Below, one piece after another: positions 2,572-24,911 of a stretch of DNA of 38,492 bases; the first letter of the stretch is position 1; every line of letters starts with the position of its first letter. The stretch is from a virus. Below the pieces are notes generated by a model that did not search any database, was not told where the DNA came from, and was given only the letters and a program-made list of their open reading frames with translations. A program made the translations under genes and the position numbers. The stretch lies in IMG/VR virus record IMGVR_UViG_3300042691_028869, positions 1-38,492 of that record. One strand, written 5' to 3'.

Positions 2572-2579
2572 TATTTAGA
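2572..2579 (-). promoter_or_regulatory. Candidate T4-type late promoter box TCTAAATA
   Basis: TCTAAATA differs at one base from the T4 late consensus TATAAATA. It directly follows the stop codon of the 88-residue gene and lies 26 nt upstream of the collagen-fibre ATG. T4 spacing predicts RNA starting near 2566 with a leader of about 20 nt. The identical octamer precedes two other virion genes (8571-8578 and 15091-15098). Confidence 0.5.
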
Positions 2580-2846
2580 TCATGGCATTGGTGGATTTGG
2601 GACGACCCACTCCGGTGTTGAAAGAATTTCAAGTATTTCCGTATGTGTGTATGGACCTTCCTTGGTGGTCAGAGAAGTGACGCAGGATGGTTCTGATCCA
2701 TCCCATTTCACGAAGGTCTTGGTGCCATCCACGGACTTGCGAACGGTCTCTGCGGAGGTTTCAAGGACTTGCGAGAAGTCAATTTGCGGAAGTTCCGATA
2801 CGTTAAAAATTATGTATTCTCTAGTTTCAAAGTCTTCTAAGTTCAT
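2580..2846 (-). CDS. Small conserved phage structural-region protein (88 aa)
   Basis: Starts with ATG at 2846 inside a 4-nt ATGA overlap with the stop of the upstream LamG gene, indicating translational coupling. The central strings SVDGTKTFVKWDG and TTKEGPYTHTEIL resemble a small protein I recall beside LamG-type genes in marine T4-like phages; its function is not known to me. There is no signal peptide or membrane segment, and the protein is acidic. It probably belongs to the virion cassette by position. It is the last gene before a late-promoter-like box. Confidence 0.8.
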   Translation of the reverse strand: MNLEDFETREYIIFNVSELPQIDFSQVLETSAETVRKSVDGTKTFVKWDGSEPSCVTSLTTKEGPYTHTEILEILSTPEWVVPNPPMP

Positions 2847-3559
2847 AGATCAAATCTCTTTCTTGTTGCGGTGTAATTTTGTTTTATTTCAAATGCGTTA
2901 AGTGCCCTATTATATATTCTCACTATTGGAAGGTTTCCACGAATTCCAGAACCTAGAGTTCCTTGATATCCGCAGCACCAATCGTTTCCTACCGTAAGCA
3001 ATGTATTGTTTGTATCATAAAATATCGATCCTGTTGTTCCCCAAGAATATACCATGTCACCATCTACATAAATTGACTGTGTCGTTCCATCATAAGTATG
3101 GGCATAGTGATAATATCTATTTGTCGTAAGGGTATAGGAATAAGTCTGATAATTTAAATTTATTCCAGCCGTTGGACCACCAGGATTTATCCCTGCAGCC
3201 AATGTATTTGTGCCATTTAGCCAAAGTGCATATGAATTGTCAAATCCATCCCCACGCTGAGAACCAATGAAAATCTGGGCTCTTTGTTCATATATGGAAA
3301 ACCAGCATTCCTGTGTGATCTGTGAGGTTGGTCTCAAGTTTGTCATTGGAACCGTTACTGCCTCATCTGCTCCATCATAAGCAATATTTCCACCATAAGA
3401 TTTATCAAATGTCACTCCATTAACAAAAGAACCGACATTTCCTGCACCACTTATGTCAATCCAAGCAGTTCCTGTTCCTGGATAACTTTTTCTGTTTCCA
3501 GCATCTAAAAACAGAAGTAATGAACTTTCAACTATATCTGGTCCTGCGCTTACTGCCAT
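2843..3559 (-). CDS. LamG/concanavalin-like lectin-fold protein, tandem copy 6 (238 aa)
   Basis: Last of six tandem paralogues. The N-terminus has the family signature PDIVESSLLLFLDAGNRKSY followed by PGTGTAWIDISG. The middle shows LamG_3-type features: VTFDKSYGGNIAYDGADEAV, then HYAHTYDGTTQSIYVDGD. The ending is NRALNAFEIKQN then RKRFDL, whereas the other five end in FNALRGRFGI, so this copy has a divergent C-terminus. The ATG at 3559 shares one base with the preceding stop (TAATG), and the stop overlaps the next ATG by 4 nt. Inferred to be a virion-associated carbohydrate-binding or adhesive protein. Confidence 0.85.
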   Translation of the reverse strand: MAVSAGPDIVESSLLLFLDAGNRKSYPGTGTAWIDISGAGNVGSFVNGVTFDKSYGGNIAYDGADEAVTVPMTNLRPTSQITQECWFSIYEQRAQIFIGSQRGDGFDNSYALWLNGTNTLAAGINPGGPTAGINLNYQTYSYTLTTNRYYHYAHTYDGTTQSIYVDGDMVYSWGTTGSIFYDTNNTLLTVGNDWCCGYQGTLGSGIRGNLPIVRIYNRALNAFEIKQNYTATRKRFDL

Positions 3560-4272
3560 TAGATACCAAACCTTCCTCTGAGGGCATTGAAGTTTTGTGA
3601 GATTTCTTCTGATGAAAGATGTCTATTGTAATATGAAAAGTATGCCATCTTTCCCCAATATTGGCTAGCAGATGTAGTAATTGCGTTGAATTCATGAAAA
3701 CCACCTATACAACAAAAACCGTTATTGAACGTTGAATTTACGTTCGTGATTGAGTAAACAGTCGTATCATTATTATATTGAAATTGATAATAAGGAGATG
3801 ACTGAGACAGTCTCCAACACATATAGTTAAATTTTGTATCATAATTTGGTATAGAATCAATATTAAAAGTAGAATCAATAAAATTACCACCATCATTGTC
3901 GTACATTCCCAGATCATTTGTTCCACTTTGAATAATAACTTGATGATCGTTGGCTGCACCTCTTAGCATAGTTCTCCAATTAGTTGGAGTTATAACTTCA
4001 CTAAACACACAAATGGTTGCATTTGCAAAAGTAGGCATATCAGTCAAAGATCCGCCAACAATTCTTTTTGCTATTCCAAAAGAACCTTCAAAATTCATAT
4101 GATCTATTCCATCTGAAGTAGAATAGGCAGACGCACTAACATTAAAGTCATATCCATTTCCACTTAAATCAAACCAACCTGTTCCAGTCCCCGGATAACT
4201 TCTTCTGTTCCCGGCATCGAGACACAATACCAATCCATCTTCAACTATGTCTGGTCCAGAATTAATTCCCAT
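3559..4272 (-). CDS. LamG/concanavalin-like lectin-fold protein, tandem copy 5 (237 aa)
   Basis: Begins MGINSGPDIVEDGLVLCLDA and keeps the PGTGTGWFDLSGNGYDF box and the C-terminal box HLSSEEISQNFNALRGRFGI. The centre (residues about 60-190) is poorly conserved with its siblings, consistent with a jelly-roll scaffold carrying variable loops. The start at 4272 overlaps the previous stop by one base (TAATG). Its 3' end carries the DNA block shared at the other junctions, with one mismatch. Role inferred: surface-exposed adhesin or decoration protein. Confidence 0.85.
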   Translation of the reverse strand: MGINSGPDIVEDGLVLCLDAGNRRSYPGTGTGWFDLSGNGYDFNVSASAYSTSDGIDHMNFEGSFGIAKRIVGGSLTDMPTFANATICVFSEVITPTNWRTMLRGAANDHQVIIQSGTNDLGMYDNDGGNFIDSTFNIDSIPNYDTKFNYMCWRLSQSSPYYQFQYNNDTTVYSITNVNSTFNNGFCCIGGFHEFNAITTSASQYWGKMAYFSYYNRHLSSEEISQNFNALRGRFGI

Positions 4273-4311
4273 TAGATACCAAACCTTCCTCTGAGGGCGT
4301 TGAAGTTTTGA
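4270..4311. repeat. 42-bp direct repeat at LamG gene junction (copy A)
   Basis: Identical over 42 bp to 4959-5000, with diverged copies at 3557, 5681 and 6370. It covers the start codon of one LamG gene and the conserved C-terminal codons of the gene upstream of it in transcription. Confidence 0.85.
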
Positions 4312-4961
4312 ACTACTTCTTGTGGAGAAAGTTCTTTATTGTAAACATTAAATATAGAACAATCCATTTGCATATTATATCCACTAGTTGCCAACCAATT
4401 TCCTATTTGACCATTTCCAGAATTAAAAGAACGGGCTCCACCATTTTCTCCAGATTGTATCTGCGATAAAGAAAAAGATTGGCCGTTAATATATATTTTA
4501 TTATTTGTATATGAAACATCTGTCCTCATAACAAACACATAATGTTTCCAATTGTTTACAATGTTTAAAGGAGTTAATGTTGCTGACGGAATCCCATACA
4601 CATCACCATTTGCTGTATTAAATCCTATAGAAGAAAAATTTCCAGTCCAAACATCATAAAGATTCCACCCAAAAAACATTCTTCCACTCGTCCAATTATC
4701 TCCAATTTTTGCCCACATTTCAACTGTTGCTACAGAAGATAAGTTTGGAGCAAAAAAAGGAATTTGATCGTCTGTTCCATCAAAAGAAACTGTCCCTAAG
4801 TTTGAAGAATTAAAAGTTGGTCCATTTTGAAAAGTAGCACCAACGTTTCCTACCATATTATTCCAGACAGTTCCAGTTCCCGGATAACTCTTTCTGTTCG
4901 CAGCATCCAAGCACAGGACCAATCCATCGGTGACAATTGAAGGTGAGTGTGAAAGTGCCAT
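4272..4961 (-). CDS. LamG/concanavalin-like lectin-fold protein, tandem copy 4 (229 aa)
   Basis: Carries the family N-terminus (PSIVTDGLVLCLDAANRKSY), a VSFDGTDDQIPF strand, a LamG_3-like core with NNWKHYVFVMRTD and KIYINGQSF, and the terminal FNALRGRFGI. It is coupled to its upstream neighbour by TAATG at 4961. The first roughly 50 bp are nearly identical in DNA to the same region of copy 1, whereas the centre is not, which suggests cassette-like exchange. Probable virion lectin by family and context. Confidence 0.86.
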   Translation of the reverse strand: MALSHSPSIVTDGLVLCLDAANRKSYPGTGTVWNNMVGNVGATFQNGPTFNSSNLGTVSFDGTDDQIPFFAPNLSSVATVEMWAKIGDNWTSGRMFFGWNLYDVWTGNFSSIGFNTANGDVYGIPSATLTPLNIVNNWKHYVFVMRTDVSYTNNKIYINGQSFSLSQIQSGENGGARSFNSGNGQIGNWLATSGYNMQMDCSIFNVYNKELSPQEVVQNFNALRGRFGI

Positions 4962-5000
4962 TAGATACCAAACCTTCCTCTGAGGGCGTTGAAGTTTTGA
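4959..5000. repeat. 42-bp direct repeat at LamG gene junction (copy B)
   Basis: Exact copy of 4270-4311, one gene length (689 bp) away in the same orientation. It could support homologous recombination that deletes or swaps a whole lectin gene in frame. Confidence 0.85.
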
Positions 5001-5683
5001 GCCACTTCATTTGCATTCAGTACACGATTATATATCTTAAATAGTGCGGTGTTCCCCAACACTGAAAATCCTGGAATATCCCATCCATAAGCCCCGTAAG
5101 GATAAAGAGTCATCAAACAAAGATCCAGATCAAAATTTCCGCTGCTAGGGGTATTGTTTGTTATTCCATGATTTGACAAAGCAACGTTGAGTGTGCCATT
5201 TATGTATGCACCAAATTGAGTTGAACTGACAACAACACACACTTGTGTCCAATTTCCCGTTGCAATCGAAGAAAATGCAAAACTGTTTGCTTGTGCTCCA
5301 ATCTGGAGTGCGAGTGCGTTGTGTACAATTCTATAATTGTATTCACCATTGCCATTCCATGGTTTTGAAACATAATTTCCATCCACATCAGATGATTTGG
5401 TCCAAAGTTCAAAGGTAACATTGTTCAATCCGCTTCCAGATGGTGTCCAAGACCAACGAGAGGATGGACTTGGAATTCCAACATAATCATTTGATCCATC
5501 AAAATTAAATGATCCAAAATTTTCTGCTGAAAAAGTTGGTCCATTTATTAAACTTCCAGTGTATGTTGCGCCACTCAAATCATTCCAGACGGTTCCAGAT
5601 CTTGGATAACTTCGACCATTTGCTGCATCAAAATACAACACCAACCCTTCTGTAACTTGAAATGGATTGTAGTTTACTCCCAT
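4961..5683 (-). CDS. LamG/concanavalin-like lectin-fold protein, tandem copy 3 (240 aa)
   Basis: Longest of the six. The N-terminal box reads VTEGLVLYFDAANGRSYPRS, so the usual PGTG is PRSG. The core contains FNFDGSNDYVGIP, VTFELWTKSSD and TGNWTQVCVVVSSTQFGAYI, a LamG-type strand order. The end is VLNANEVAQNFNALRGRFGI. ATG at 5683 overlaps the preceding TGA (TGATG). The central 150 residues are unlike the siblings. Role inferred as host-surface binding. Confidence 0.86.
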   Translation of the reverse strand: MGVNYNPFQVTEGLVLYFDAANGRSYPRSGTVWNDLSGATYTGSLINGPTFSAENFGSFNFDGSNDYVGIPSPSSRWSWTPSGSGLNNVTFELWTKSSDVDGNYVSKPWNGNGEYNYRIVHNALALQIGAQANSFAFSSIATGNWTQVCVVVSSTQFGAYINGTLNVALSNHGITNNTPSSGNFDLDLCLMTLYPYGAYGWDIPGFSVLGNTALFKIYNRVLNANEVAQNFNALRGRFGI

Positions 5684-6372
5684 CAGATGCCAAACCTTCC
5701 TCTCAAGGCATCAAAGTTTTGTTTAATCTCTGTTGCAGTTAACACTCTATTGTATACTCTGCATATTGCCAAATTTCCATTATAATAATATGATCTACCT
5801 CCAATATATCCACCATAAACTCCCACAGACATTCCTCCATTATTCACAGACAATGTTCCAGTTCGTCCGTCAGAATTGACTTGTGTTCCATTTATATATA
5901 AAATTCTACTTCCACTAGTATATGTTCCAACTATTTGATACCAATCAGTGGTATTCATGTAAGTTGCTGTTGTTGTCGTCAAATTTGTTAAACCAACACC
6001 AGAAATATTGTGTCTCCATTGAATACCTGCGCCTTCTTGGAATAAGGAATATTGAGTATTTACAGTTCCTTTTTCAAACCAAAATCCATTTTGTGTGGTT
6101 GCATTTGTTTTAACCCAAACTTCAACTGTTGGAGTATCTGTATCCAAGGCAGTATTGTTTGGTAATATAACCATATCATCTGTGCCATCAAAAGAAAAAT
6201 TACCATTATTTAAACTTGAAAATGTTGGAGAATTTTTTAATTCTCCAACATTTTGGATAACACTTAAATCAGACCAAGTATTTCCTGCTGTTGGATAACT
6301 TCTTATGTTTGCCGCATCCAAGTACAAAACCAAGCCTTCGGTTACTATTGTTGGGGAGTGATTGAGGCCCAT
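5683..6372 (-). CDS. LamG/concanavalin-like lectin-fold protein, tandem copy 2 (229 aa)
   Basis: N-terminal box VTEGLVLYLDAANIRSYPTA; core strings FSFDGTDDMVILP, PTVEVWVKTNATTQNGFWFE and RILYINGTQVNSD are typical of Laminin_G_3 proteins; the end is VLTATEIKQNFDALRGRFGI. The start shares one base with the previous stop (TGATG at 6372). It belongs to the coupled tandem array and is presumably expressed with the fibres upstream. Confidence 0.87.
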   Translation of the reverse strand: MGLNHSPTIVTEGLVLYLDAANIRSYPTAGNTWSDLSVIQNVGELKNSPTFSSLNNGNFSFDGTDDMVILPNNTALDTDTPTVEVWVKTNATTQNGFWFEKGTVNTQYSLFQEGAGIQWRHNISGVGLTNLTTTTATYMNTTDWYQIVGTYTSGSRILYINGTQVNSDGRTGTLSVNNGGMSVGVYGGYIGGRSYYYNGNLAICRVYNRVLTATEIKQNFDALRGRFGI

Positions 6373-7052
6373 CAGATGCCGAACCTTCCTCTGAGAGCGT
6401 TGAAGTTTTGTAAGATTTCTGTTTCAGAAAGTCCACGATTGTACAATCGAGCGTTTGAAATTCTTCCATTATGATAAGTGTGAATTCCAGCAAAACCAAT
6501 TGTAATGGGTTCATTTGATGCCGCCCAAGGACCTGTAGCCACGTTTGATCCTATAGAAACTCCATTTAGATAAAGCATATGATTTGATCCAGTTGTAGTT
6601 GCCACAACATGATTCCATGTGTTGAGTTGAATAATTGGTGATGCGGGATATATGCTTGGATCACCAGCACCATATCTTTGCCACAATAATCTCCTGTCGC
6701 TTGCATACCATAAACCAAAAGTTCTGTTGCCAATAGGATTATTACCAGTTCCAATTATTCTTACCCAATCTACGCCAGCAGAGGTTACATAAATCCACGC
6801 TTCTGCTGTAATGTCCGCAGTAAATTGACTTGATATTGATGTTCCATTTATAAAATCATTAGCACCATCTAGCGTGAAATAACCCGCATTTTCATTATTA
6901 TACACTGGACCATTTGTCAAAATTCCAGTATTTTCATTTCCACTTAAATCAAACCATCCAGTTCCAGTCCCCGGATAACTCTTTCTGTTCGCAGCATCCA
7001 AGCACAGGACCAATCCACTAGTTACGATTCCGGGATTATATTGGACTGCCAT
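6372..7052 (-). CDS. LamG/concanavalin-like lectin-fold protein, tandem copy 1 (226 aa)
   Basis: First and most canonical copy: VTSGLVLCLDAANRKSYPGT, then FTLDGANDFINGT, ITAEAWIYVTSAGVDW, the family hallmark NTWNHVVATTTG followed by MLYLNGVSIGSN, and the end FNALRGRFGI. The start at 7052 lies one base past the stop of the 489-residue fibre gene (TGATATG), so it is probably translated by re-initiation. Laminin_G_3 domains are sugar- or protein-binding jelly rolls; a virion adhesin role is inferred. Confidence 0.87.
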   Translation of the reverse strand: MAVQYNPGIVTSGLVLCLDAANRKSYPGTGTGWFDLSGNENTGILTNGPVYNNENAGYFTLDGANDFINGTSISSQFTADITAEAWIYVTSAGVDWVRIIGTGNNPIGNRTFGLWYASDRRLLWQRYGAGDPSIYPASPIIQLNTWNHVVATTTGSNHMLYLNGVSIGSNVATGPWAASNEPITIGFAGIHTYHNGRISNARLYNRGLSETEILQNFNALRGRFGI

Positions 7053-14692: not shown

Positions 14693-15082
14693 TTAGGTTC
14701 TCGTTACATCAAGAATTGTGCCTATTTTTCCTCTTAACAATGTTAGTGTGTCAGAAGAAGAACTTATTTGTTGCAAGTCATAAAAAATTTGTGTATATGG
14801 TGGAAAATTTTTAGTGTAATTTGAACCAATGCAAACATTTATGGAACCAGCAGTACCAGCTGCCAAACCACCACTAGATCCTTCAGGAGTTGATATTGTA
14901 CTTCCTGCGGTAACTCCTATTGAATATGAAACCAAAACTTGGCTTGGATAATATCCAGCTCTTACTTGCATAGAAAGAGTGGAACCAGTTAGATCATAAC
15001 TGGTTCCAGCACTGTTTTTCAGAGCCATAGACCAACGAAGAGTATCGCCTAATACTACATTTGGGTCGTAAAAATTTTCCAT
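14693..15082 (-). CDS. Small beta-rich virion protein, possibly BppU-like (129 aa)
   Basis: Residues 1-60 ([20 protein letters not shown], then [20 protein letters not shown]) have the pattern of the N-terminal beta-sandwich of phage baseplate upper proteins that anchor fibres. The rest is serine- and glycine-rich strands ending [11 protein letters not shown]. It is the first gene of the left late island. ATG at 15082 has no Shine-Dalgarno and is the end of a 10-bp inverted repeat with a late promoter box in its loop. Baseplate or fibre-anchor function is inferred. Confidence 0.78.
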
Positions 15083-15107
15083 GACAAAAATATTTAGATT
15101 TTTGTCA
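15082..15107 (-). promoter_or_regulatory. Inverted repeat hiding the start codon, with late promoter in its loop
   Basis: Minus-strand arms TGACAAAAAT and ATTTTTGTCA form a perfect 10-bp stem around the loop CTAAAT. The 5' arm begins at the TGA stop of the GT2 gene and the 3' arm ends on the A of the next ATG. Read-through RNA from the early operon would occlude the start. RNA initiated within the repeat cannot form the stem. Confidence 0.7.
15091..15098 (-). promoter_or_regulatory. Candidate late promoter box TCTAAATA
   Basis: One mismatch from the T4 late consensus. T4 spacing places the RNA start near 15085, giving a leader of about 3 nt before ATG at 15082. Confidence 0.55.
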
Positions 15108-16325
15108 CAATACTGCTGGAACTTTTGAAGGATCTACGCTAAGAGTAGTTCTGTTGGCTTTTTTCTTAATTTCTTCCAAAACCTGTTTTTGTTGTTGTTC
15201 TATTTGCTGTTGTTGTTGTGCTACAACTTTTACATATAGATCTCTGTTTTGTTGAACTCTTGCTCTTTGATCTTCTGGTAAATGTGACTCGGCAAGAAGT
15301 TTTTCACATGCAGCCAATCCCATATGAAATTTTCCAACATGAGCAGCACTGGTAGCAACTTCATCCAATATTCCCCACAAATAGTTTCCAGTATCAACGA
15401 ACAAAATTTGATCTTGTGGAATTGGAATTGAAAGTCCTTGTGAAGCCATGATAAAAGCATTTCTTGGTCTATTATGCTTTCTATAGATACATGACATATG
15501 ATAAAGTGGTTCTACTCTGTTTGGTAGAGTCTCAAATGCTTTCATAAAAGCATCTATTACCAATTCAACTGGTTTGCAAAGAATCTCCCTACACATACCA
15601 ACTCTCATCCATGAATAAAATACTTCTTCCACCCATTGTCCCATGTTTGCTCTTTTTTCATATTCAATTTCTGCAATATCAAACATATGGGAGTCAAATG
15701 CTGATTGCGCCAAGTAAAATTGTTTTCTTGGTTGGTTGGGATTTTCATCAATGTATTTTTTGAGAATATGATAATCTCTTTTATACTTTTCTCGATCATC
15801 TCCATTTGTTTCCCGGAATCGACATCCTTCAGTTCTTACTTCCCATGCATAGTCGCCCTCAAGTTTGGCAACATTCATTGGCTGTTCGCAAATTGAATAT
15901 TCGTGAAGTGGCTCTTCGTACCACCACTTTTTCTTGGCAAGATGGAATATCTGTGCACGATACCATTCAAATGGCCCACGCTTAATCTTTACGACATATC
16001 CATCAAGATTTTCATCAAATTTATCAACTGGGAGTTTTCCAATGATAAAATCATCAGCATCAATCATCAGAGCCCATTTGGTTTTTCCCATGCAAGCCTC
16101 AAGAGCCTTGGAACGATTTGTTCCAAAGTCAGACCATTCATGGTCTAGAATCTCTCCCGGAATTCCCTTTTTGTCAAAGAAGTTCTTGATGATCTCCTTT
16201 GTATTGTCGGTTGATCCGGTATCAGCGATCACATAGTAATCGATGTATGGTGCGACAGACTCCAAGCAACGTTCGATGTTTGGGGCCTCATTCTTTACGA
16301 TCATACTCAAAGTTAAATTGTACAT
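15105..16325 (-). CDS. GT2-family glycosyltransferase with Gln-rich C-terminal coil (406 aa)
   Basis: The N-terminal domain is a classic GT-A fold of the GT2/SunS type: LSMIVKNEAPNIERCLESV (residues 6-24), DTGSTDNT (35-42) and the metal-binding DADD (89-92). Residues about 190-360 look helical and TPR-like (KQFYLAQSAFDS, EPLYHMSCIYRKHNRPRNAF). The C-terminus holds a glutamine-rich coil (QQQQQIEQQQKQVLEEIKKK). ATG at 16325 is preferred over 16331 because AAGG lies 6 nt before it. It follows regA closely and so belongs to the early replication operon, yet it sits next to the collagen-fibre island. The acceptor is unknown; virion or host-surface glycosylation is possible. Confidence 0.85.
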   Translation of the reverse strand: MYNLTLSMIVKNEAPNIERCLESVAPYIDYYVIADTGSTDNTKEIIKNFFDKKGIPGEILDHEWSDFGTNRSKALEACMGKTKWALMIDADDFIIGKLPVDKFDENLDGYVVKIKRGPFEWYRAQIFHLAKKKWWYEEPLHEYSICEQPMNVAKLEGDYAWEVRTEGCRFRETNGDDREKYKRDYHILKKYIDENPNQPRKQFYLAQSAFDSHMFDIAEIEYEKRANMGQWVEEVFYSWMRVGMCREILCKPVELVIDAFMKAFETLPNRVEPLYHMSCIYRKHNRPRNAFIMASQGLSIPIPQDQILFVDTGNYLWGILDEVATSAAHVGKFHMGLAACEKLLAESHLPEDQRARVQQNRDLYVKVVAQQQQQIEQQQKQVLEEIKKKANRTTLSVDPSKVPAVL

Positions 16326-16333
16326 GGTCATCC

Positions 16334-18973: not shown

Positions 18974-19290
18974 GTAATTTCAAGCACGGAAACAAAAGCA
19001 TGAATCGTAGCCGTGTTTCCGGCTTGTGCCCTCAAAGTGTTTGAATTTTCCAATACTATTGGTGCATCCAATGCTTGAAAAGATGTGCTAATTGCAATTT
19101 GAGCATTTGTTATTAAAGAATACGCAGTGGAGCCCTTTACAGCATTCAAAGTAACTGTTGTTCCACTTTGTGTGTTTGTGTTGCTGAACACTACGCTATT
19201 TACCAATGCTGTTCCAGAAACACCGGAATAAATTGTAGTGGCGGCTGTTGAACCTAATATTGTTCCAAAACTTTTGTATGTTTCTGGCAT
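18970..19290 (-). CDS. Small beta-sandwich structural protein (106 aa)
   Basis: MPETYKSFGTILGSTAATTI, VVFSNTNTQSGTTVTLNAVK and LRAQAGNTATIHAFVSVLEI fit a widespread small marine-phage structural protein with an immunoglobulin- or jelly-roll-like beta fold. No signal peptide. ATG at 19290 has AAGGAAGAA upstream and lies one base past the previous stop. It is the last gene of the right late island; its TGA forms part of the next -35 box. Exact virion position unknown. Confidence 0.78.
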   Translation of the reverse strand: MPETYKSFGTILGSTAATTIYSGVSGTALVNSVVFSNTNTQSGTTVTLNAVKGSTAYSLITNAQIAISTSFQALDAPIVLENSNTLRAQAGNTATIHAFVSVLEIT

Positions 19291-19291
19291 A

Positions 19292-19489
19292 TTATTCTTC
19301 CTTAGTATTTATGGGCAAATTAAAATGCAATCGTGCTTCTTCTTCACTGTCAAACCAATGCCATCCATCAACAGGATATGTATGAAGTTGTTGTAAGTGG
19401 GCATAAAGTTGATAATCTTTGTGTTCTACAAAATTTGGTGCATACAACAATTCTCCAGTATAATCTATTTTATAAAATCCCGATTCCAT
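19292..19489 (-). CDS. Small hypothetical protein (65 aa)
   Basis: ATG at 19489 is preferred because GGAG lies 5 nt upstream and the protein then starts MESGFYKIDYTGELLYAPNF. An upstream in-frame start at 19534 would overlap the previous gene by 35 nt. The C-terminal GWHWFDSEEEARLHF is a motif common at the end of small phage proteins near fibre genes. No known function; likely part of the virion cassette by position. Confidence 0.72.
   Translation of the reverse strand: MESGFYKIDYTGELLYAPNFVEHKDYQLYAHLQQLHTYPVDGWHWFDSEEEARLHFNLPINTKEE
19306..19313 (-). promoter_or_regulatory. Weak candidate late promoter box CATAAATA
   Basis: One mismatch from TATAAATA, inside the end of the 65-residue gene and 16 nt before ATG at 19290. 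It would leave a leader of about 10 nt including AAGGAAGAA. It could be chance, as it overlaps codons. Confidence 0.3.
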
Positions 19490-19499
19490 GTATTCTCCT

Positions 19500-21446
19500 T
19501 TATCCAGCAACACCCCATCCTTTTGCGGTTGCAATACTCCTATTGCAACCAGATGCTCCCCAGTTGTTTGTTATAGTTATTGTTCTTCCACCCGATGTTG
19601 CGAGATTTGTGAATATATCATTAAGTGATGCTGAAGATAAATTGCAATTTGCATACGATACGCTAGCACACATTCCTCTTAATACTGCAGATTTAAGATT
19701 AGGACAAGTATTAAATAAAAGTGTTGCAGAAGTAATAGTTGATGATACATTTATTGGATCAATAAGTTGCAATTCCGTACAACCGTTAAATATATTAGAA
19801 TATGCACTTGTCGAATTTGAAAACGTTAAACCAGGAACATAAGTCAAAGAAGTGCAATTTTCAAACATTCCAGTAAAATTTGTCCCCAAAGAAGTATTTA
19901 ATAAAGGAATTGTTATCAACAACGAACATCCTTGAAACATAGTTTCAAAACGTGTTCCTTTTGATGTGTTTAAAAAAGGAATTTCTCTCAAAGAACTACA
20001 ACCAGAAAACATATTTTGAAATTGTGTTCCATTCGCTGTGTCTAAAAAAGGAATTCTTTTCAACGAACTACAAGACTGAAACATGCTAGAAAAATCTGTT
20101 ACTTGAGAAGTGTTTGAAATAAAAATTTGTTCTAATGCACTACATCCTTGAAACATGGATGACAGACCTGTCGTTAAGGATGTATTTAATATAGTAACTT
20201 TTTGAAGTGTTGAACAATTTATAAACATACTTGACAAACTAGATGCTTGACTTAAATTAAATAATGGAACTGATTGTAATGAACTACAACCCTGTAAAAA
20301 ACCAGTAAAATTGGTTCCCTTAGATAAATCTAACAAAGGAATTTCTTTTAAAGAACTACAACCAGTAAACATGTTACTAATAAAAACACCATTAGATGTA
20401 TTTAAAAAAGGTATTGCTGTTAATGAAGTGCAATTATTAAACATTGAAATAAAATTTGAAGCTTGAGATGTATTTAATGATGGAATAGTTTGCAATAAAG
20501 AACATCCACTAAACATGCTCTGAAAAGTTGATGATTTTCTTGTTTCAATGTAAGGAATTCTTTTTAACATTCTACATCCCAAAAACATACTACCAAAATC
20601 GGTTCCCGCCGTTGTATCTAAAGGAGAAATTGTTTCTAGTGAAATACAATCTTGAAACATATTACTAAAGCTTGTTACTTTAGATGTATTAAAACTAGGA
20701 ATTGTTGATAATGAAGAACAACCTCTAAACATATCAGAACAACTTGTTATTTTTGAAGCCCAAGATATTCCAGAAATTGATTCCAAAACGCGCATAAATG
20801 CAAATAATGATGTTCCATCTGTGATTTGTGATTCACCTACATATTCAAAAAATCTTGCACGTCTTTCATTGCTGGCATTATTAAAAATAAGAGATGATAA
20901 TGTGTTTGAACAAATTTTATATCCCAATATTGCATTTGTGTATGATGTGGACAGTGTTATACCGGCTTGTGTAAATCTTCTTCTAAAATTTGCAGAGGAA
21001 AAGGTGCCACCCGCAGTTGCTGGGTATGCTTGCATTATTACTTGTCTACAACCCAAATTTGATAAAAAAGTTGATGCAGAAATTCCGGCAAAATCATAAT
21101 TGTATTGTGCTGTGGCACCAGAAGAAATTGTTTGTGTAATTCCATTTCCCCAATCAACTATATAAGTACATCCACTTAATGCAAAAGCAAAAAAATTACC
21201 ACTAGCAGTAGAACCACTTGCACCAGAGCCTCCCGGAAAAATTGCACACAGTGCTGCAATTCTTTGATCGCCCACAGTCATACCCGGCATGGAAAGCCAA
21301 TCACTTGGAATAGACCAAGAAGTAAGCCCTATGGTTTCAAATTGATTGTTTAAATAATTTTTGTTTAAACTGTCTACTCCATTTCTTTGAATAAAATTAT
21401 TATTACCTATATAACCACCATTTAAACGATTTGATCTTGTTTTCAT
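19500..21446 (-). CDS. BspA-type (DUF285-like) leucine-rich-repeat protein (648 aa)
   Basis: After an N-terminal region of about 215 residues come roughly 15 tandem 23-residue repeats with the pattern MF-x-x-C-x-x-L-x-x-I-P-x-L-x-T-S (for example [29 protein letters not shown]). This is the surface-adhesion repeat of BspA/DUF285 proteins. The C-terminal part ([20 protein letters not shown], then [20 protein letters not shown]) resembles the cap of such proteins. ATG at 21446 is chosen because it makes an ATGA overlap with the upstream collagen gene; a TTG three codons earlier is less likely. Inferred function: virion adhesion. Confidence 0.85.
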
Positions 21447-24400
21447 AAAAACCAATGCCTCGGTATGCTAGTTCCTGTAACAGTTCCAGTAAAACCATTA
21501 AAAGTTTCCACATACATTGTTGGTCCACCACCTCCACCTCCACCACCAGAAGAATTTATTGTAATTCCTGCAGCAGATGTCGTGAGAGTGATGTTTGAAC
21601 CTTGATAGAATGTCACCCCACCTGTAAGTCCATTTACAGAAATTACATAATCGCCTACTGGACCCGTTGCTCCGGTATTTCCCTGTGGACCAGTGGCTCC
21701 AGTGGCACCAGTGGCTCCTGTGTTTCCCTGAATGCCTTGGATGCCTTGGGCTCCAGTTGCACCAGTGGCTCCTGTGTTTCCCTGAATGCCTTGGATGCCT
21801 TGTGCACCAGTGGCACCAGTGTTTCCAGTGGATCCTATTGGACCAACAGTTCCAGTGGCACCAATTGTAAGTGTATTTCCACTTACAGTGATTATTATAT
21901 TGTTACCAGCAGTAATCCCAACGTTTGCGGTAATGCCAGCGACACTTCTTACCACATTCCCGATATAATTTCCGCTGACACGAATATTTCCCAATACATC
22001 TAGTTTTTCACTTGGAAGCGTTACTCCAATACCAACATTTCCGGTAAAGCCAGCAAGAACAATTCTTCCATTTGCATTTACATCGATGCTTGGAATACCA
22101 GAAATGTCATTGACGCTGAAGATACTTCCGGTTCCAAGATTATTTGTGATGCTAAAAAGTTGGCCAGCAGAGCCTTCAAATGAAATAGTTCCACAATTTC
22201 CACTGAGTAACCGCATCTTCATTGCAGATGCACCACTAATCAAATAATTTATGTCATTTGATAGAGTCATTCCGTTGGTGCACATACCAGAAATGAATGC
22301 TACTTGTGATGCAAAAGTTCCTCCTGCAGAAGAAATTCCATTTGTAAAACTTTGAAGTGGGCCAAATGTATTGGCAACACCAGTTGTTACGCCTGTCACG
22401 GCACCAGTAAGTCCATTAAACGAAATTACATAATCGCCAACTGGACCCGTGTTTCCTTGAGGACCAGTGGCTCCAGTGTTTCCAGTGTTTCCCTGAATGC
22501 CCTGAATTCCCTGAATTCCTTGGATGCCTTGGGGACCAGTGGCACCAGTGTTTCCAGTGTTTCCCTGAATGCCCTGAATGCCTTGGATGCCTTGGATGCC
22601 TTGGATACCTTGGGCACCAGTGGCTCCAGTATTTCCAGTGTTTCCCTGAATGCCCTGAATGCCCTGAATTCCTTGGATACCTTGGGCTCCAGTAGCACCA
22701 GTGTTTCCAGTGTTTCCCTGAATACCCTGAATTCCCTGAATTCCTTGGATGCCTTGGGCTCCAGTAGCACCAGTGTTTCCTGTAGTTCCAGTCAACCCTC
22801 TTGGACCTGTTGATCCAGTAATGCCCTGAATGCCTTGAATGCCTTGAATGCCTTGGATGCCTTGGGCTCCAGTGGCACCAGTGTTTCCAGTGTTTCCCTG
22901 AATTCCTTGGATGCCTTGGGCACCAGTGGCTCCAGTGTTTCCAGTGTTTCCCTGAATGCCCTGAATTCCCTGAATGCCTTGGATTCCTTGAATGCCTTGG
23001 GCTCCAGTGGCTCCAGTATTTCCAGTGTTTCCCTGAATTCCCTGAATGCCTTGGATACCTTGGGCACCAGTGGCTCCAGTGTTTCCCTGAATGCCTTGGA
23101 TGCCTTGGATACCTTGGGCTCCAGTAGCACCAGTGTTTCCAGTGTTTCCCTGAATGCCTTGGATACCTTGGGCTCCAGTGGCACCAGTGTTCCCCTGAAT
23201 GCCTTGGATACCTTGAGCGCCAGTGGCTCCAGTGGCTCCAGTGTTTCCTGTGTTTCCCTGAATGCCCTGAATGCCTTGGATACCTTGGATGCCTTGGATG
23301 CCTTGTGCTCCAGTGGCACCAGTGTTCCCTGTGTTTCCCTGAATGCCTTGGATGCCTTGAGCACCAGTGGCTCCAGTGGCACCAGTGTTTCCAGTGTTTC
23401 CCTGAATGCCTTGGATGCCTTGGGCTCCAGTGGCACCAGTGTTTCCAGTGTTTCCCTGAATGCCTTGGATGCCTTGGGCTCCAGTGGCACCAGTGTTTCC
23501 AGTGTTTCCCTGAATGCCTTGGATGCCTTGGGCTCCAGTGGCACCAGTGTTCCCTGTGTTTCCCTGAATGCCTTGGATACCTTGAGCGCCAGTGGCTCCA
23601 GTGGCTCCAGTGTTTCCTGTGTTTCCCTGAATGCCCTGAATGCCTTGGATACCTTGGATACCTTGGATACCTTGGATACCTTGAGCACCAGTGGCTCCAG
23701 TGTTCCCTGTGTTTCCCTGAATGCCTTGGATACCTTGAGCACCAGTGGCTCCAGTGTTCCCTGTGTTTCCCTGAATGCCTTGGATGCCTTGGGCTCCAGT
23801 GGCACCAGTTGCACCAGTGGCTCCTGTGTTTCCCTGGATGCCTTGGATGCCTTGGGCTCCAGTGGCTCCAGTGGCTCCTGTGTTTCCCTGAATGCCTTGG
23901 ATGCCTTGGGCTCCAGTGGCTCCAGTGGCTCCTGTGTTCCCTGTGGTTCCCTGTGGACCAGTGTTCCCCGTGGCTCCGGTATTTCCTTTTTCAGCTGTAA
24001 GGGCAGTAACCGTATACTTCAAAAATTCTATAGTTATGCTGTTTGTTGCTGTTTTATTTTGAACAATAAAGAAAACCCTATCGTTCGTATTAAGATCCAA
24101 CAGAGTCTGAATGGTACTTGAAACTGGTTGGCCAGATGGTGTTGAAGCATTTGCATATATTTCAGATTCTGAAATCCTGTCATTGTTTGGATCAAGAGTC
24201 AATCCTGATGTATTGTGTCCAACATAAAATCCACAAATATCTTGACTTCCACTGTAAAAGTTAAAGTTAGCAATGATGTGAAATCTTCCACCAGATCCAA
24301 GATACTTTAATGAATTTGTTCCGATATCTTTTGCAAAGTTATACAAAAGACCAGTTTGCATATTTCCAGCAACTACCGCTCTTGCATTAATTGAACCTAT

Positions 24401-24889
24401 AGGTGTGGATGTGGTATTTCCTTTCAAATACATCACACCAACATCATTATTTCCAGGTGCACCAGAACCAGGTGTTCCAGTTGCTCCCTGTGGTCCGGTA
24501 GCACCAGTAGGTCCTGCTGGACCAGTGGCACCAGTGTTTCCTATTGGACCTGTTGCCCCGGTTGCTCCCGTTGCACCAGTAATTCCAGAACCACCCGACC
24601 CCCCAGATATTGTTTTCCAAACAAATCCAGTATCAGTAAGTTGTCTTATATATAAGACATCATTTTCATCAAACCAAAACTGATTCTCCTCTGGTTGGAG
24701 TGGTGCCTCTGGGTCTTGATATGGTTCTGTGAGTTGAGTCAACCTCCAACTATTTGGAGACTGAAATGGAGATTGTTGTGTAACTTTAAGACATTCATAT
24801 ACCTTTCCTTGGTATATGACAACATCTCCAATTGAATATGTATAGGGAGTCCCTGAAGCGTTCTTAAATCTAAAATTTCCCTTAAACAT
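21443..24889 (-). CDS. Giant T/Q-rich collagen-like fibre protein (1148 aa)
   Basis: Residues 1-95 contain a chitin/cellulose-binding-like module ([19 protein letters not shown], then [13 protein letters not shown]) and a short linker. A small collagen block and a globular beta domain follow ([20 protein letters not shown]). The main collagen array (about 170 Gly-X-Y triplets, mostly GIQ, GNT, GAT and GAQ) comes next, then the beta module shared with the left-edge gene ([21 protein letters not shown]), a last collagen block and a short C-terminal tail. ATG at 24889 has no Shine-Dalgarno and directly follows an inverted repeat with a late promoter box. Probably a long trimeric fibre; the number of repeats may vary between relatives. 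Confidence 0.87.
22440..23985 (-). repeat. Collagen repeat array, 9/18/54-bp units
   Basis: Nearly 1.55 kb of in-frame repeats. A 54-bp unit encoding 18 residues ([18 protein letters not shown] in one phase) is tandemly exact at 23396-23449 and 23450-23503, with most of a third copy following. Other copies differ by gain or loss of 9-bp GIQ words or 18-bp words, typical of slippage or recombination. Confidence 0.9.
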
Positions 24890-24911
24890 TCACAAATATT
24901 TATACTTGTGA
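24890..24911 (-). promoter_or_regulatory. Inverted repeat abutting the start codon, with late promoter at its centre
   Basis: Minus-strand arms TCACAAGTA and TATTTGTGA pair over 9 bp (one G-U wobble) around TAAA. The 3' arm ends one base before the ATG at 24889, and the 5' arm lies in the end of gp46. The centre contains TATAAATA. It has the same arrangement as 15082-15107. Confidence 0.68.
24897..24904 (-). promoter_or_regulatory. Consensus T4-type late promoter TATAAATA
   Basis: Exact match to the T4 late consensus, overlapping the TAA stop of gp46. T4 spacing predicts RNA starting near 24891, 2 nt before the ATG of the giant collagen gene. Confidence 0.65.

Follow-up and report, generated by a model that had tools for sequence, protein, structure and literature searches.

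Late promoters set against start codons, and a lineage-restricted nested hairpin, in uncultured T4-like phages

How might a virion gene that directly follows a replication operon be made readable only from late RNA? The usual explanation for the timing of translation in T4-like phages combines promoters with hairpins that mask the Shine-Dalgarno (SD) sequence; a late promoter fused to the start codon would be a simpler way to the same end. The question is raised by a 38,492-nt stretch of viral DNA (IMG/VR record IMGVR_UViG_3300042691_028869; hereafter the window), a fragment of a T4-like phage whose minus-strand gene order includes SbcD, SbcC, a late promoter, a tail fibre and, further on, the gp45 clamp and the gp44 + gp62 clamp loader, followed by RegA, a glycosyltransferase (GT2), another late promoter, a 129-aa protein and collagen-like fibre genes (Table 1). 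The best cultured matches of gp44, about 55% identical, are in Pelagibacter phage Mosig, cyanophages and Melnitz; a BLAST search with the 129-aa protein returned no match in phage records, further scans for its orthologs added essentially no new contigs to those compared below, and the aminotransferase gene of the window has no relative among the genome contigs searched for a hint of the host. The GT2-129 junction had been described as an early-to-late boundary: replication genes do meet structural genes here, while the label "early" for GT2 follows only from its place after gp45-gp44-gp62-regA.

Table 1. Coordinates of genes, late promoters and inverted repeats in the window
Feature	Position	Strand	Remarks
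129-aa gene; probably a virion protein, with collagen-like fibre genes following	14693..15082	-	PHROG 1084 (unknown function); orthologs in relatives
408-aa glycosyltransferase (GT2) after regA	15105..16331	-	PHROG 13126; TGA stop opens the inverted repeat
Perfect 10-bp inverted repeat	15082..15107	-	5' arm 15107-15098, loop 15097-15092, 3' arm 15091-15082
T4-type late promoter octamer TCTAAATA	15091..15098	-	From sequence; TCTAAATA or TATAAATA in L003-L005
Predicted late +1 (G)	15085..15085	-	Octamer +6; leader GUC, then AUG; placed by T4 numbering and the clade's purine peak
9-pair inverted repeat around the 24.9-kb promoter	24890..24911	-	RNA fold; strong only in the window, L016 and L017/L018
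Late promoter TATAAATA	24897..24904	-	The sbcC stop codon is its TAA (24902-24900); +1 predicted at 24891
Collagen-repeat tail-fibre gene	21443..24889	-	Predicted 2-nt leader
Late promoter CATAAATA	19306..19313	-	Spacing of 15 nt to the 106-aa gene at 19290; GGAAG in the leader
Late promoter TCTAAATA	2572..2579	-	Ordinary 25-nt spacing to the ATG at 2546

The original prediction placed a late promoter inside a perfect 10-bp inverted repeat with a 6-nt loop, and the sequence is exactly as described: from 15107 to 15080 the minus strand reads TGACAAAAAT CTAAAT ATTTTTGTCA TG, the repeat spanning from the GT2 stop codon (15105-15107) to the A of the 129-aa ATG and enclosing the T4-type octamer. 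As RNA, the hairpin has a folding energy of -8.2 kcal/mol (z -5.7 against shuffles), and the modelled cost of opening the AUG region is 9.7 kcal/mol in the read-through RNA versus 1.7 in the late RNA. The start region has no SD, and the AUG itself is the masked element in the fold model. Repeats of this kind are not rare in a sequence of this length: among 200 dinucleotide shuffles, 58 hold at least one perfect 10-bp repeat with a loop of 3-8 nt; the window has five such places, a count matched by none of the 200. At the 15082 start, arms borrowed from upstream of 164 other late starts pair equally well in only 0.6% of cases, so the repeat is unusual at this exact site.

Nested hairpins are already established in T4, so the kind of device is not new: genes e, soc, 49 and I-TevI (also segB, and mobE of Aeh1) have a late promoter inside an inverted repeat, and it has been proven that their late RNA lacks the 5' arm while in early read-through RNA a fold covers the start (PMC2988022, PMC3014915). 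The window resembles these genes in having the promoter inside the repeat, a late RNA predicted to lack the 5' arm and, in the model, a read-through RNA that folds over the start and sequesters the AUG. In T4, however, the hairpin masks an SD within the leader, whereas the window has no SD to mask and a predicted 3-nt leader, and, unlike the T4 device, its hairpin is missing from the nearest relatives. Promoter-to-ATG spacing (d) at 15082 is 8, not 5, and the late message of the 129-aa gene would be near-leaderless rather than leaderless.

What is general in the clade is a feature that the original prediction missed, namely a spacing of 3-11 nt between promoter and ATG without an SD. The 17 contigs of the clade (1.29 Mb) hold 88 sites at which exactly 5 nt separate the end of MTAAATA from an ATG, compared with 2.8 expected from 14 permuted motifs; the sites comprise 86 distinct sequences in 34 gene families, many of them orthologs of one another. 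The spacing profile peaks at 5 nt, with a shoulder at 6-11 nt and another mode between 16 and 30 nt, whereas T4 and Syn9 have the long mode only, with a peak at 21-30 nt. In other respects these promoters are like the T4-type late promoters that depend on gp55/gp33/gp45: the clade has the NMTAAATA octamer followed six bases later by a purine, and gp55 homologs are found in 14 of the 17 relatives searched. The octamer is enriched clade-wide and conserved as TCTAAATA or TATAAATA at the GT2-129 junction; NCTAAATA is the Aeh1-type variant of it (PMC2988020). The octamer +6 base is a purine in 80-81% of cases in the clade, and in 81% of its leadered genes, as expected for a +1. Late octamers of T4 lie at -13 to -6 (PMC2988020), with contacts at -12, -9 and -8 (PMC7892883), and a 5-nt spacing therefore puts the predicted +1 on the A of the AUG; late mRNAs of this class would be leaderless.

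These starts are real: codons 2-16 of the genes evolve as coding sequence, changing mainly at the third position (530/441/1160), and where a family is mixed, its leadered orthologs with an SD start at the same Met. SD 4-mers occur at 2 of 159 sites with d = 5-8 versus 90 of 117 with d = 16-30; their absence at d = 5-8 is partly forced by space, of which there is hardly enough at 5 nt. The promoter's TAA doubles as the stop codon of the previous gene at 44 sites in the 5-11 nt range, an overlap present in 18 families of the 3-11 nt class. By PHROG assignment, the leaderless families include neck adaptor Ad2, head closure gp4, a baseplate wedge protein, a tail-tube-like protein, an HNH endonuclease and a RuvC-like resolvase, while the major head protein, scaffold and sheath are leadered and carry an SD; low-copy virion proteins would thus be mostly leaderless, if the families are read by copy number. 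It is quite likely that leaderless mRNAs serve part of the late programme in a large group of uncultured T4-like phages, and also in HTVC008M and other cultured Pelagibacter phages of its kind, with the gp55 promoter fused to the gene, transcription starting at the A of the AUG, the promoter TAA often ending the previous gene, and neck, baseplate and head-closure proteins separated in this way from SD-leadered capsid, scaffold and sheath. Such an arrangement could set virion stoichiometry and keep these genes from being read from early read-through RNA.

The Pelagibacter phages HTVC008M and Mosig and the Methylophilales phage Melnitz share the MTAAATAN5ATG arrangement, with 13 matches versus 2 for the reversed pattern in HTVC008M, 9 versus 0 in Mosig and 5 versus 0 in Melnitz. 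In HTVC008M, 12 of the 13 lie on annotated CDS starts, including those for head closure, tail tube cap, baseplate wedge and tail completion; T4 has 4 versus 0, with only one of the four at a gene start in the ORF set of this analysis. Such sites are less numerous in the cultured phages than in the clade, and their spacers are rich in GT instead of T; the arrangement yields a prediction testable in all three. Prediction methods for late promoters that were built for cyanophages failed on pelagimyophages (PMC7029224), and a promoter that abuts or overlaps coding sequence may be one reason. The nearest likeness outside phages is found in leaderless genes of Deinococcus-Thermus, where a -10 element adjoins the ORF, and in leaderless mycobacterial transcripts (PMC12340547, PMC4633059): there too, an element of the -10 type lies a few bases ahead of the start codon and leads to an mRNA that begins at the AUG. 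Those are bacterial genes, however, whereas the clade uses a T4-like late programme that involves a phage sigma factor and for the most part serves low-copy virion proteins. The literature searched, mostly without subscription papers, yielded no description of leaderless late mRNAs in T4-like phages.

On balance, the 129-aa gene is probably controlled by a near-leaderless gp55-type promoter that abuts its start codon, with poor initiation on read-through RNA and a hairpin lock added in the lineage of the window. The late RNA polymerase would start at 15085 and produce an mRNA with the 3-nt leader GUC before the AUG and no SD, to be translated as a near-leaderless message. In read-through RNA from the replication operon, the same ATG would be internal and without an SD, and initiation there should be poor; in the window lineage, the upstream sequence would also pair with the start region, masking the AUG only in the read-through RNA, as a lock of the e/soc/I-TevI kind on top of a leaderless start. 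Sequence, promoter-spacing statistics, gene-start conservation and fold predictions are the direct results here, and the +1, the translation behaviour and the silencing role are inferred from them. Ribosome passage counts against the lock: a ribosome that finishes GT2 at 15105 would sit on the 5' arm, where it could open the hairpin, and one translating sbcC would fully disrupt the companion hairpin at 24.9 kb. It is plausible, if unproven, that the silencing role of the hairpin is a lineage-level trait, while the promoter beneath belongs to the clade-wide architecture.

The strongest competitor, which may be right but which we hold only tentatively, is an incidental inverted repeat: any A-rich stretch upstream would readily pair with the AT-rich octamer and T-rich spacer, and timing would be due to promoter recognition alone. 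In agreement with this, 192 distinct near-leaderless late starts from 60 gene families, compared after exchange of arms between families, show no excess of pairing by the upstream arm (observed -1.78 versus -1.87 exchanged); ddG is -2.31 versus -2.23, and the mean percentile of AUG opening is 0.49. A small excess over shuffled upstream bases (-1.78 versus -1.44) is attributed by the exchange test to shared upstream composition, not to site-specific pairing, and the number of strongly paired families is only slightly above the null. When the near-leaderless sites are split by upstream neighbour, closely spaced co-directional genes give no hairpin signal; repeats are present at divergent gene pairs, where they probably result from two late promoters that face each other.

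The relatives bear on the same alternative from both sides. In the closest ones (L003-L005), whose 129-aa protein is 83-84% identical, the junction retains TCTAAATA or TATAAATA, TTTTTGT and the ATG, but TTAATTAAA replaces TGACAAAAA and the strong hairpin is therefore gone. The companion hairpin at 24.9 kb, UCACAAGUA-UAAA-UAUUUGUGA, is also real, with 9 pairs including one G-U, and adjoins the ATG at 24889; its 5' arm lies within the sbcC coding region. The overlap of promoter and sbcC stop is kept in most relatives that have the SbcC-fibre junction, while a strong hairpin is confined to one lineage (3 of 24 sites). Against an incidental origin, both near-leaderless sites of the window are at the 0.6% level in the arm exchange, and two further lineages with the same GT2-129 junction (L112/G010 and L113/G011) have equally extreme hairpins over the AUG that are built from non-homologous arms, compared with 1 of 170 control sites below 2%. 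Since three lineages carry strong, non-homologous hairpins at this junction, a local silencing role stays plausible, though unproven. Pairing is weak or null in the remaining lineages, and a further branch of the junction has an SD leader instead, with a covarying stem-loop and T-run between promoter and SD; the 129-aa late gene seems to be set apart from the upstream operon by different routes in different lineages.

The original proposal, in which a late promoter nested in a hairpin would be the general device wherever early genes meet late ones in the phage group, is unlikely, and for the near-leaderless class it is largely refuted. Both boundaries of the window carry such a hairpin, and the model supports a masked AUG in read-through RNA and a late RNA free of the hairpin; the generality is not supported, since nested repeats are absent at most orthologous boundaries, an outcome that the prediction itself had named as refuting, and related near-leaderless starts show no enrichment over exchanged arms. 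The device does have a foothold among SD-bearing leadered late genes, which have an excess of arm-leader pairing (ddG -4.17 versus -3.06; 0 of 60 permutations) led by the tail-sheath-like gene, with 6 of its 9 sites at or below about 5%, but the family-mean percentile of this class is 0.46. These genes represent the classical T4 form. At the start of the tail-sheath-like gene (G005, G006, G010, G011, G012, G015), an upstream GGTATCCY can in several cases pair with the SD region (GGGATA/AGGATA), with matched changes, as in a classical T4-like SD-masking nested hairpin.

A transcription terminator between GT2 and the late operon is very improbable: the leadered orthologs of the junction do carry a terminator-like covarying stem-loop, with a T-run before the SD, but the repeat of the window is A-T rich with no T-run after the stem. 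An intrinsic terminator at 15082-15107 was rejected, as there is neither a G+C-rich stem nor a T-run and the terminator scan reported none. Least probable of all is that the palindrome serves a dimeric protein as a DNA operator that overlaps the promoter; this reading has a precedent in the autorepression of I-TevI at its own late promoter (PMC2988022) but would sit poorly with arms that are wholly different between the two window sites and among relatives.

The stem-loop of the leadered orthologs (A3) has 97% of cells paired and three pairs changed on both sides. With the sequence AATAATRRCCT and a T-run, it lies between the late promoter and a GGAG leader, just before the 129-aa ortholog, in L026, L027, L040, L086, L091, L095, L101-L104, L118 and L123, and only a few bases separate its beginning from the late +1 predicted there. 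Within the 129-aa ORF itself, at 14980-15008 on the minus strand, there is a perfect 12-pair stem, TGGAACCAGTT..AACTGGTTCCA (-17.6 kcal/mol), whose counterpart in L003/L004, TGGATCCAGTT..AACTGGATCCA, has a compensatory double change; more distant orthologs do not keep the perfect stem. Elsewhere in the window, a 16-bp inverted repeat, AAAATGTTGGAGAATT, lies inside a gene of the 6.4-kb region (6215-6258; about -20 kcal/mol on either strand), and a 10-bp repeat occupies 19527-19550, where ORFs 19500-21455 and 19292-19534 overlap. Positions 2580-7052 hold six successive ORFs of 226-240 aa plus one of 88 aa, five of them with nearly identical upstream sequence (cctcagaggaaggtttggtatctaATG), and together they look like a tandemly duplicated gene family.
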